A stretch of DNA of 64,000 nucleotides, taken from the NCBI RefSeq assembly GCF_029909975.1, contig NZ_CP094516.1, positions 3,720,001 to 3,784,000 on the forward strand, written 5' to 3'. This document shows positions 1-60,968 of this stretch, in pieces. Under the pieces are notes generated by a model, which saw only the letters and a list, made by a program, of their open reading frames with translations, searched no databases and had not been told where the DNA came from. The DNA comes from Bradyrhizobium sp. ISRA430. Its GTDB lineage: Bacteria > Pseudomonadota > Alphaproteobacteria > Rhizobiales > Xanthobacteraceae. A program made the position numbers and the translations under genes. Position 1 is the first letter of the stretch. Each line of letters opens with the position of its first letter.

Positions 1-96
1 GAGGCGATGGACGAGCCGATGCAGGAGCTGGGCGAGGTCGGTATCCTGCTCAACAGGGCGCACGCCGCTCCGGCGGCGTATCCGGCCGGAAACTGA
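1..96 (+). CDS. C-terminal end of an unidentified gene, cut by the window edge
   Basis: An open frame enters from the left edge and ends at TGA 94-96, giving 31 residues ending AAYPAGN. It is too short to identify. It faces the minus-strand flagellar operon and is followed by a strong hairpin, which fits a real gene end. As I recall, the lateral flagellar locus of Bradyrhizobium diazoefficiens has its regulator gene lafR at the edge in opposite orientation, so this could be its tail. That is inference from position only. Confidence 0.4.
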   Translation, partial: EAMDEPMQELGEVGILLNRAHAAPAAYPAGN

Positions 97-127
97 CGCC
101 GCAAGGCATCGACACGACAGCGACACC

Positions 128-57685: not shown

Positions 57686-60007
57686 TTACACCGGATCGAA
57701 CGCGCGGATCGGCGGCAGGTTGCCAGTGAAGCGCTCCACGTCGACCGTCGTGAGCTGGCCGGTGCAGCCTTGCGCAAGTGACGATGTGCCGATGTCACGG
57801 GTGAGCACGTTCGGATTGCCGTGAACGCAGAGCGGCGCCTCGTCCTCGGGATCCATCGGATCGTACCAGGCGCCGGTCGGAAGCTGGACGACACCGGGCG
57901 CGATGCCGTCGGTGACATGCACCGCGGCAAGGCAGGCGCCGCGGTCGTTGAACAGGCGGATGATGTCGCCATCCGCGATGCCGCGCGCTTCCGCATCGCG
58001 CGGGTTCATGCGCGCGACCTCGCGGCCGCGATGCTTGGACGCAAGCGAATGTCCGCCGAAGTCGAGCTGGCTGTGCAGGCGCGTCACCGGCTGATTGGCA
58101 ACGAGGAAGCACGGCGCACCTGGCTTCGGCACATCGGTCTTCTCGAGCCAGACCGGATGACCCGGACAATCCGCATCGCCATGGCCCGCGATCTTTTGCG
58201 AAAAGATCTCGATGCGTCCGCTCGGCGTCGGCAGGGCATGAGTGATCGGATCCTCGCGGAAGCGGCGCAGCCGGCCGCCGTCATCGGGCTGTTGCGGCAC
58301 GACGAGGCTGCCGCGCCGCCAAAACTCCTCGAAGCTCGGCGCCTCGATGCCGCGCGCGGCAAGCGAGGCGCGGGTCGGCTCATAGAGATGTTCCAGCCAT
58401 TGCCGCGATGTGCGGCCTTCGGTGAAGGGTTCGCGTGCGCCAAGACGCTCGGCGAGATCGGCAAAGATCTCATAGTCGTCGCGCGCAAGGCCAAACGGCT
58501 CGGCGATCCGGTGCATGGCGACCATCAGGGGATCGTTGGTGGAATAGCCGATGTCCTCGCGCTCGAGCGTCATCGTCGAGGGCAGGACGATGTCGGCATG
58601 CCGGGCCGTGGCGGTCCAGGCAAGCTCATGCACGACCAGCGTGTCGACACGCGCGAAGGCCTTGCGCAGGCGGTTGATGTCCTGGTGGTGGTGGAAGGGA
58701 TTGCCGCCGGCCCAGTAGACGAGACGGATATCCGGATAGACGCGCGTCTCGCCGTTGTAGCGATAGGTGGTGCCGGGATTGAGCAGCATGTCGGCGATGC
58801 GCGCCACCGGAATGAAATCGGCGACGCCATTGCGGCCCTGCCCCAGTGTCGGCCCCGGCACGTCGTTGACGCGGCGCCCGTAATAGCCGATCGCGCCGAG
58901 CGAATAGGCGTAGCCGCCGCCAGGCAGGCCGATCTGGCCGAGAGCTGCCGCCAGCACCATGCCCATCCACACCGGCTGCTCGCCGTGCTCGGCGCGCTGC
59001 AGCGAATGCGAGACCGTGATGAGCGCCCTTTTGCCGGCAAGGCGACGTGCCAGCTTGCGGATCATATCCGCATCGACGCCGCAGATCGCTTCGGCCCACG
59101 CGGCGCTCTTGGATTGCCCATCCGTCTCGCCGGTCAGATAGCGCAGGAAGACCGGCCAGCCTTCGGTGTAGCGATCGAGGAAAGCCTGGTCGTGCAGGCC
59201 TTCGCTCACAAGCGTGTGCACGATGCCGAGCATCAAGGCCGTGTCGGTGCCGGGCACGCACGTCATCCATTCGGCACCGGCCTCCTGAGGCAGATCGTCA
59301 CGCAACGGGCTGACCAGGATGAACTCGCAGCCGCGCCGGCGCGCCGCTTCCATGGCGCCGCGCTCGACGTGCTTGCTGATCGAACCGCCGGCCACCATGG
59401 AGTTCTTCAGCGCCATGCCGCCGAACGCCAGCACGATTTCGCTCTCGGCCGCGATCTGTTCCCAGGTGACGTTGCGCTTGGTGATGTCTTCGTAGCCCGC
59501 CAGGATCTGCGGCAGCAGCACCGAGGACGCGCCCGAAGAATAGGTGTTGACCGAACGCACATAGCCGCCCATCGCAATGTTGAGGAAGCGGTGAACCTGG
59601 CTCTGTGCGTGATGGAAGCGGCCTGCGCTCGACCAGCCATAGGAGCCGCCGAACACCGCGCCGGGGCCGCACATGTCGCGGATGCGCGCCAGCTCGCCGC
59701 CTAAGAGGTCGAGCGCCTTCTCCCAGCTCACGGAGACGAATTCGTCGCGGCCGCGACGGTCATCGGGGCCGGGACCGCGCTCGAGCCAGCCGCGACGGAT
59801 CGCCGGCTGGGCGATGCGCGCCTGGTGGCGCAACGCGCCAGGAAAATTGTCGATGATGCCGTTCGGATCGGGATCCCCTGCATAATGCCGAACCTCGAGC
59901 CCGGCATCGCCATGACGCGCCGAGAACACGCCCCAATGCGAGGTGTGCGGCTTGAAGCCGTCGGACAGGTCGAGGCCGGGCTCGGGGCAGCCAATTGCGT
60001 CGTCCAT
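57686..60007 (-). CDS. Cytoplasmic molybdopterin S/N-oxide reductase (BisC/TorZ type)
   Basis: 773 residues from ATG 60007 (MDDAIGCPEPG). No Tat signal, so it stays in the cytoplasm like biotin sulfoxide reductase rather than TorA or DorA. The cofactor domain has FGGSYGWSSAGRFHHAQSQVHRFLN (in parts), where the serine ligand of molybdenum is expected. Later motifs are VYWAGGNPFHHHQDINRL and VNQPVTRLHSQLDFG. Likely reactions are reduction of biotin sulfoxide, methionine sulfoxide or an N-oxide. The first ORF codons to 60058 are not needed. Confidence 0.9.
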   Translation of the reverse strand: MDDAIGCPEPGLDLSDGFKPHTSHWGVFSARHGDAGLEVRHYAGDPDPNGIIDNFPGALRHQARIAQPAIRRGWLERGPGPDDRRGRDEFVSVSWEKALDLLGGELARIRDMCGPGAVFGGSYGWSSAGRFHHAQSQVHRFLNIAMGGYVRSVNTYSSGASSVLLPQILAGYEDITKRNVTWEQIAAESEIVLAFGGMALKNSMVAGGSISKHVERGAMEAARRRGCEFILVSPLRDDLPQEAGAEWMTCVPGTDTALMLGIVHTLVSEGLHDQAFLDRYTEGWPVFLRYLTGETDGQSKSAAWAEAICGVDADMIRKLARRLAGKRALITVSHSLQRAEHGEQPVWMGMVLAAALGQIGLPGGGYAYSLGAIGYYGRRVNDVPGPTLGQGRNGVADFIPVARIADMLLNPGTTYRYNGETRVYPDIRLVYWAGGNPFHHHQDINRLRKAFARVDTLVVHELAWTATARHADIVLPSTMTLEREDIGYSTNDPLMVAMHRIAEPFGLARDDYEIFADLAERLGAREPFTEGRTSRQWLEHLYEPTRASLAARGIEAPSFEEFWRRGSLVVPQQPDDGGRLRRFREDPITHALPTPSGRIEIFSQKIAGHGDADCPGHPVWLEKTDVPKPGAPCFLVANQPVTRLHSQLDFGGHSLASKHRGREVARMNPRDAEARGIADGDIIRLFNDRGACLAAVHVTDGIAPGVVQLPTGAWYDPMDPEDEAPLCVHGNPNVLTRDIGTSSLAQGCTGQLTTVDVERFTGNLPPIRAFDPV

Positions 60008-60179
60008 TGCGTGTTCCCTATGGTGGAGTGCCGATCGCCCCGCTGCCGTCGCAATCATCGGGACGATATATTGATGCGCTGTTCCGCATTACCAGAGAAG
60101 CCCGCCCCGACAAATGACCGAGGAAGCGAGGACGTCAGATCGCAGATGAACTCTCCGGCGACGGTGCTAGAATCAAGCC

Positions 60180-60290
60180 ATGACTGAGATGATTCTCTTC
60201 ATGACAACAGCCGGCGTCGCTCTCGTGGGACTGATCATCGGCTTGTTCGAGGCCCGGGCTGCGCTAGAGCGCAGGCGTCTCAAAAGGTAA
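60180..60290 (+). CDS. Possible small single-pass membrane protein
   Basis: 36 residues (MTEMILFMTTAGVALVGLIIGLFEARAALERRRLKR) with one membrane helix and a basic C-terminus. It has a membrane-protein-like composition but no clear ribosome site, so it is uncertain. Too short for family assignment. Confidence 0.35.
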   Translation: MTEMILFMTTAGVALVGLIIGLFEARAALERRRLKR

Positions 60291-60403
60291 GGCCGCCCCG
60301 ATTGGCGCCCTGGCCGAGCGATCGAGCGGGCCCAGGACCAAGACGACCCAAGCCTCACCGGTACTGGTTCCGGACGCAGGGGGCTGTTCAGCGAATGCGC
60401 CTG

Positions 60404-60437
60404 CCGATTGCCGGTTTTCCCGGCTCCTGCCAATCGG
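60404..60437. promoter_or_regulatory. Inverted repeat upstream of the sigma-54 promoter
   Basis: CCGATTG (60404-60410) and CAATCGG (60431-60437) are exact inverted copies with CCGG pairs between them (60411-60414 and 60420-60423). The centre is about 77 nt upstream of the -24 element, a usual distance for an enhancer-binding protein. The activator is unknown; it is not a match I can assign to NifA or NtrC. Confidence 0.4.
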
Positions 60438-60497
60438 TCATCGTTAAGAGACGTTCCAATCCGCAAATCTGAAGAGATTTCGCGAGGCATTGAACCT

Positions 60498-60513
60498 TGG
60501 CACAGCTTATGCA
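60498..60513 (+). promoter_or_regulatory. Sigma-54 (RpoN) promoter
   Basis: TGGCACAGCTTATGCA matches the -24/-12 consensus TGGCACG-N4-TTGCW: GG at 60499-60500 and GC at 60511-60512 with exact 10-nt spacing. Transcription should start near 60524. No protein gene begins before the terminator at 60561-60595, so the product is probably a small RNA. Confidence 0.75.
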
Positions 60514-60523
60514 GACCAACCTT

Positions 60524-60596
60524 TACCGGGATTTTGCATTCCCTCTCGGGGCTGGAAAGCCGCCGCCTGCGGTCATTTAAGCAGGCGGCGTTTTTA
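60524..60596 (+). ncRNA. Candidate sigma-54-dependent small RNA
   Basis: Predicted from promoter and terminator alone: start about 12 nt after the -12 GC, end in the T-run. Length about 70-75 nt. The 5' part has an unpaired CCCUCUC stretch that could pair with purine-rich ribosome sites. There is no frame with a start and ribosome site. I do not recognise a known RNA family. Confidence 0.6.
60561..60596 (+). terminator. Intrinsic terminator of the plus-strand small RNA
   Basis: Perfect 10-bp stem CGCCGCCTGC (60561-60570) and GCAGGCGGCG (60581-60590), 10-nt loop, then TTTTTATTT. This is one of the clearest Rho-independent terminators in the window. Confidence 0.88.
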
Positions 60597-60607
60597 TTTC
60601 GGGAGTG

Positions 60608-60654
60608 AAAAAAGCCCCAGCTCCTTGGGGGCTATGGGGACGATGAGCTGGGGC
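60608..60654 (-). terminator. Intrinsic terminator on the minus strand, facing the plus-strand one
   Basis: Ten-pair stem of GCCCCAGCTC and GAGCTGGGGC followed on the minus strand by TTTTTT. It lies only 12 nt from the T-run of the plus-strand terminator, so the two units converge and end back to back. Confidence 0.78.
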
Positions 60655-60790
60655 CAACGAGCTGCCCTTGGGGAAGGGCACCGGGAAAACCTGGCAACAG
60701 CTCCCACGTTCCTGTCCCAATTCGATTCAGCCGACGCCCAAATCAGGACAGCACCAGCGCCTGAGTCCTGTCCCATTTCGGCGCTCTGCG
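60608..60790 (-). ncRNA. Candidate minus-strand structured small RNA
   Basis: On the minus strand a stem of GCCCCAGCTC (60614-60623) with GAGCTGGGGC (60645-60654) ends in six T (complement of A at 60608-60613), an intrinsic terminator. Upstream lie further stems: TGCCCTT/AAGGGCA (60663-60669, 60674-60680) inside GAGCTG/CAGCTC (60659-60664, 60698-60703). The 5' end is not placed; the upper limit given is a guess. There is no credible frame. The plus strand could also fold, so a leader element of the downstream transporter gene is an alternative. Confidence 0.5.
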
Positions 60791-60968
60791 CTCGAAGCTA
60801 TTTGCGCCGCAGCATTCAAAAATGAGACTACCCGTCAAACCGAACGAGGTGCCCACGCATGCACCGCATCCGACTTCGGTTAGCCTCCCGGCAAAACCAC
60901 GAGCCTCAAGAGCCACAGGCGGCGCCGGTTTGGCGCGGCGACAAATCGACGACACAGGGAGGAGCACA

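Follow-up and report, generated by a model that had tools for sequence, protein, structure and literature searches.

Near the end of the window, i.e. the whole stretch of 64,000 nucleotides that was analyzed, a predicted small RNA of about 74 nt occupies positions 60525-60598 of the plus strand. It is preceded by a promoter region (60490-60516, plus strand), which was delimited by motif and copy comparison and contains two overlapping promoter-like pairs. Facing the RNA tail to tail lies a second, RNA-like element on the minus strand (60606-60681), here called family B, with its own promoter-like element (60684-60712, minus strand) and a degenerate TGTCC array (60713-60773) beyond it. On the other side of the RNA, a 36-aa membrane-like open reading frame (MTEMILFMTTAG...; 60181-60291, plus strand) is free of indels in the syntenic relative G215, and a molybdopterin oxidoreductase gene (57686-60058, minus strand) reads away from the RNA; its best NCBIfam match, bisC_fam, scored 905.7 bits and is below the cut-off of 1017.55.

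The sigma-54-type -24/-12 site TTGGCACAGCTTATGCAG, which had been predicted as near-perfect, is present at 60497-60514 on the plus strand. It has the form GG-N10-GC, with a -24 element TTGGCAC at 60497-60503 (GG at 60499-60500) and a -12 element ATGCA at 60509-60513 (GC at 60511-60512). Two of the 12 specified consensus bases deviate, the -12 element and position 7 being off consensus. Matches as good as this one were found 13 times in the window, compared with 11.2 expected; the promoter match by itself is at chance level and is not significant. The case for a promoter therefore rests on the comparison between copies presented below. The site is overlapped on the same strand by the second promoter-like pair, which consists of TTGAAC (60490-60495) and AGAC (60513-60516).

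With the inferred start at 60525 and the last base of the T-run as its ends, the RNA would be 71-74 nt long. Its first hairpin (60526-60549, plus strand; CCGGGA pairing with TCTCGG) has 96.6% of alignment cells paired and carries UUUUGCAUUCCC, the likely pairing loop. The 10-bp intrinsic terminator with T-run of the original prediction was located at 60561-60595 (plus strand; 99.2% of cells paired), where positions 60561-60570 pair with 60581-60590 and the T-run begins at 60591. Its folding energy is -22.6 kcal/mol (z -4.84), and that of the entire RNA is -33.9 kcal/mol (z -3.1). A simple terminator scan of the window did not list the 60561-60590 stem, probably because its loop has 10 bases and the scan is limited to 8. 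Over the complete three-helix structure 97.0% of cells pair, a value that none of 500 shuffles reached and that compares with 39-52% for slid versions; two of the five measures of this test were unremarkable or weak, namely the further pair types (152 of the 500 shuffles) and double-change pairs (9 of 500). Across the copies, three terminator pairs are changed on both sides, and hairpin 1 shows one-sided (G-U) changes only. The absence of a translatable frame had also been claimed. Between promoter and terminator the window sequence indeed has no ATG or GTG, but two mechanical TTG-started frames (60408-60608 and 60490-60825) cross the RNA unit. A conserved reading frame is unlikely, since the RNA length, 72-79 nt across family copies, varies by single bases.

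Two further elements of the original prediction, a link to the nearby transporter locus and an inverted repeat at enhancer distance, fared less well. The transporter gene encodes a periplasmic binding protein that remained below the urea and branched-chain cut-offs. Out of 195 genomes with a match, 30 orthologous transporter loci were examined; 28 of these have no RNA copy within 1.5 kb, and besides the genome under study only G215 has the RNA there. As other copies of the RNA are moreover located near unrelated genes, e.g. recA, the transporter was rejected as a partner. The inverted repeat CCGATTG/CAATCGG does exist at 60404-60410 and 60431-60437. In G215, however, an 85-base stretch containing the repeat is missing, although the RNA is identical to that of the window at 74 of 74 positions; the role as an enhancer was therefore rejected. 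The promoter and block B are each 94% identical between the two genomes, and the upstream spacer is 75% identical. Besides nifA, the genome under study encodes eight proteins with matches to the central domain of NifA, and a nitrogen response of the RNA is possible.

Membership in the BjsR5 family

The 241-base region around the RNA has matches elsewhere in its own genome and in 142 of 265 genomes of the genus, its own included. Most of them fall into two blocks, A (query positions ~9-119, plus strand) and B (~129-234). In 38 aligned A copies the conservation begins at AACCTTGGCAC in many copies and reaches GGCGGCGTTTTT in all but a few, and the flanks are unrelated. The A copies are dispersed, and their edges are sharply marked by the promoter on one side and the terminator on the other. 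The covariance model R1, built from the transcript only (37 rows that a promoter-containing query had originally found), detected A in 146 of the 265 genomes of the genus at E <=0.001, and four copies in the genome under study.

Genome G027 was taken to be a USDA 110-like genome; NifH was recognized there at 1,928,000-1,930,500, the position that PMC5082802 implies for BjsR8. For USDA 110, a start at 6,326,856 (plus strand) with a predicted RpoN promoter was published for BjsR5a, and a start at 5,605,382 (minus strand) for BjsR5b, which has no such predicted promoter (PMC5082802). On Northern blots BjsR5 was detected in culture and nodules with a probe that cannot separate BjsR5a from BjsR5b (PMC5082802). 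Base 1 of R1 coincides in G027 with both published starts and corresponds to position 60525 of the window. This indicates that the window RNA is a BjsR5 homologue with an expected start at 60525. The window copy (genome positions 3780525-3780598) scored 96.3 bits against R1 compared with 96.0 for BjsR5a, both being part of the model alignment, and a blastn comparison of the window region with the BjsR5a locus gave 80.9% identity (E 1.9e-24). Judged by these alignments, the RNA is very probably an additional member of this published sRNA family of soybean bradyrhizobia.

A draw of 391 genomes from the whole family contained 59 with R1 matches at E <=1e-4, two of them weak and outside the genus (G313, E 4e-6; G400, E 1e-4). 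R1 matches were also present in 14 plasmid records, all of them from Bradyrhizobium, which together with G027 identifies the genus searched as Bradyrhizobium; in 13 of the 14 no gene from the (incomplete) PLSDB table lies under the RNA. The phage records searched contained no match to the RNA family. Rfam yielded no small-RNA family in the window, where only sub-threshold chance matches occurred, and only one tRNA and one group II intron in 11 loci with A or B copies. An Rfam family exists for alpha-r14; at gathering score, neither the window nor the 11 loci matched alpha-r14/NfeR1. What makes the family noteworthy is this distribution over 146 genomes of the genus and 14 plasmid records without an Rfam model in the stretches scanned. 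At one locus (L134 9115-11445), three BjsR5 copies occupy 2.3 kb between recA and a glycosyltransferase gene, a stretch that includes a DUF6894 gene. tRNA genes were considered as integration sites and rejected: an ARAGORN scan of 14 loci of 20 kb and one of 1.7 kb found a tRNA in only two of the 15 loci, plus one near the L046 copy.

Promoter classes and alternative explanations

The copies compared for their promoters came from 99 of 148 loci, with duplicates, separately searched 20-kb loci and the near-identical L031 left out. From 115 matches, 100 distinct copies were obtained after 10 weak opposite-strand shadows were dropped and five identical copies merged; they represent the better-scoring part among the R1 matches listed. 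Thirty-eight were first found with a promoter-containing query and 62 without. GG-N10-GC is located at -28 to -25 in 39 of the 100 copies, a share that is inflated because the first query included the promoter (26 of the 38 copies found in this way carry it), and is absent there in 61. It starts exactly at -27 in 35 copies, and the remaining offsets between -40 and -16 account for 0-2 copies each. Among the 62 promoter-unbiased copies, the motif is at -27 in 10 and within -28 to -25 in 13, with 0-2 per offset elsewhere, and 49 lack the -24/-12. In the sequences compared, the conservation of its position exceeds chance. Conservation of promoter and stem across the genus had been proposed as a check on the prediction; the stem is retained in the family, but the promoter at its fixed spacing only in the part of the copies given above. 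The window copy shows the GG-N10-GC, the ten-base spacing and the fixed distance from the start, and it is the only one of the four copies in its genome with a -24/-12 at this distance.

After removal of near-duplicates, 34 copies of the sigma-54 class and 55 others remained. TTGGCA is found at -28 in 29 of the 34, and bases that are independent of the class definition are kept, namely TT at -28/-27 (1.6 and 1.4 bits) and CA at -24/-23 (1.4 and 1.3 bits); the spacer from -21 to -16 has only 0.3-0.9 bits. Of these copies, 12 have TGAAC at -34 and 15 have AGAC at -12. The other class instead conserves TGAACCTT, beginning at -34, and AGAC, beginning at -12. A loose TGAACCT...AGAC form, which is read as a sigma-70-family promoter, fits 42 of the 55. 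On a tree of the RNA body, the promoter class changes 16 times, compared with 31 times with shuffled labels. On supported branches there are at least nine changes at SH-aLRT 80 and at least three at SH-aLRT 90, trees from 77 bases being weak.

The locus is best explained, with a probability of about 0.77, by a free-standing BjsR5 sRNA gene at 60490-60598 that is driven by sigma-54 from 60525 and whose product probably acts in trans by loop pairing. With the help of an enhancer-binding activator, RNA polymerase carrying sigma-54 (RpoN) would form an open complex and start at 60525, and transcription would stop at the terminator, yielding an RNA of ~74 nt. This RNA is predicted to fold into two short hairpins and the terminator hairpin, and its exposed U- and C-rich loop would most likely pair with mRNAs in trans. 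The comparison of copies supports the family membership, the equivalent start site, the structure and a -24/-12 that is conserved in part of the family. Together with the published BjsR5 (PMC5082802), these results support the central claim of the original prediction, an sRNA that has a sigma-54-type promoter and a terminator of its own, and a real sigma-54-driven sRNA gene of the BjsR5 family is very probably present. There is a smaller but appreciable chance that the RNA is real and transcribed mainly from the overlapping sigma-70-family element, with TTGAAC as -35 and AGAC as -12, the -24/-12 being a relic or accessory. The window copy carries both elements, the TGAACCT...AGAC form stands at the same distance in most copies without a -24/-12, and only 13 of the 62 promoter-unbiased copies have a -24/-12. 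However, the -10 side of the element in the window (CAGACC) is weak, copies of the sigma-54 class often drop TGAAC but retain TTGGCA, and an RpoN-type promoter was predicted for BjsR5a (PMC5082802).

Explanations that dispense with an RNA gene are much less probable. A REP-like palindromic terminator repeat could mimic an RNA gene, as the element is multi-copy and dispersed, its terminator stem is the strongest part and REP elements are present in such genomes. This is very improbable, because hairpin 1 is conserved as well, as is the promoter in many copies, and because family members have published starts and Northern bands (PMC5082802). Slightly less probable still is that the stem is a mere terminator of the 36-aa gene, a conserved short open reading frame upstream on the same strand: in many other genomes, too, the stem and the RNA body occur together, and the 85 nt missing in G215 lie between this frame and the unchanged RNA.

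Neighboring elements, possible targets and known systems

Family B is multi-copy, with a hairpin CCCUUCCCCAAGGG and a terminator GGCCCCAGCUC/GAGCUGGGGC. In 16 copies the conservation begins at the promoter-like element and reaches the terminator; most of these copies have the hairpin and the terminator. The promoter-like element reads GGAAC-N16-GGTT in the window, and the spacing of GGAAC-N16-NGTT is kept in 15 of the 16 copies compared, some of which are near-identical; one of the 15 has GGATC. EcfG promoters have the form GGAAC-N16/17-CGTT. Given this resemblance, B is possibly an RNA of the general stress response. A B copy (L042 1125-1230) in the USDA 110-like genome follows the published start of BjsR7b.

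The degenerate array behind B comprises TGTCCCAATT (60713), GGACA (60746-60750) and TGTCC (60769-60773). In B-bearing loci, TGTCC arrays are positioned at the 5' side of B, and intact arrays adjoin BjsR5 copies in other genomes. Near copies of the sigma-54 class, 16 of 44 same-strand TGTCC pairs within <60 bp are spaced by 22 bp and 10 of 27 inverted pairs by 11, and the arrays can end in TGTCCYAATTRGGACA. TGTCCYRATT occurs at 1.67/kb within 300 bp of sigma-54-class copies compared with 0.25/kb for the others, lineage being a possible confounder; beyond 500 bp the values are 0.47/kb and 0.16/kb. A genome-wide search of 14 genomes for TGTCCYRATT-N11-13-TGTCCYR gave seven occurrences and none of the reversed control pattern. 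Five of the seven arrays are located 21-302 bp downstream of R1 matches in the same direction and two away from any copy. The arrays may act as a pure sigma-54 enhancer, half-sites being enriched near copies of that class, but arrays also adjoin copies without a -24/-12 (L048, L075, L012, L072, L100, L106, the second L026 copy and L149). The TGTCC palindrome is near an RNA copy in four of six places and not near one in two. The genome under study has four TGTCC-N6-GGACA palindromes, none near the window copy and one (4209112) beside another copy. That BjsR5-like copy (G000:C1:4209262-4209337, L149) has no -24/-12; a TGTCC array and the palindrome follow it downstream. NifA sites have the form TGT-N10-ACA, which the palindrome fits; with nifA in the genome, this is a lead rather than a finding.

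With regard to targets, the only exact complement of the loop in the RNA's own genome is its own antisense, and a single one-mismatch site there lies inside a gene. A DUF6894 (PF21834) gene was found within 6 kb of 24 of 60 RNA copies in 11 genomes, among the matches listed (149 of 177 for DUF6894; 60 of 68 RNA copies, six with E >1e-4 and two on second contigs being left out). Rotations gave an expectation of 0.94, and none of 2000 was as high as 24. None of the four RNA copies in the genome under study is within 6 kb of a DUF6894 gene. Pairing of the RNA with 14 DUF6894 leaders was not clearly above that of 200 mononucleotide shuffles each (lowest p 0.045, uncorrected).

More tentatively, BjsR5 copies might repeatedly swap promoters of the sigma-54 and sigma-70 families with RNA and start fixed, and a dedicated regulator might read the adjacent TGTCCYAATT arrays. 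At this locus the RNA would face a general-stress RNA tail to tail, and one RNA body would report locus-specific inputs. This proposal is doubtful. If copies truly switch sigma class with the RNA fixed, they constitute a natural experiment on the rewiring of one regulatory RNA. Sigma-54 promoters serve nitrogen and symbiosis genes, and the new signals for a rewired RNA at this locus are possibly nitrogen or symbiosis.

The window copy is like BjsR5a and BjsR5b of USDA 110 in RNA body, start and terminator, and BjsR5a also has the same kind of -24/-12 (PMC5082802). It differs from both in its neighbors, as far as examined, in the extra TTGAAC at -35 and in the facing B element. NfeR1/alpha-r14 of Sinorhizobium are likewise multi-copy rhizobial sRNAs with C-rich loops (PMC7143759), a functional analogy only, as NfeR1 has three hairpins, anti-Shine-Dalgarno loops and a sigma-70 promoter (PMC7143759). 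SmelC165 and SmelB033 are, by description, also orphan sRNAs with predicted RpoN motifs, but in contrast to the BjsR5 family they are listed as single-copy (PMC7143759).
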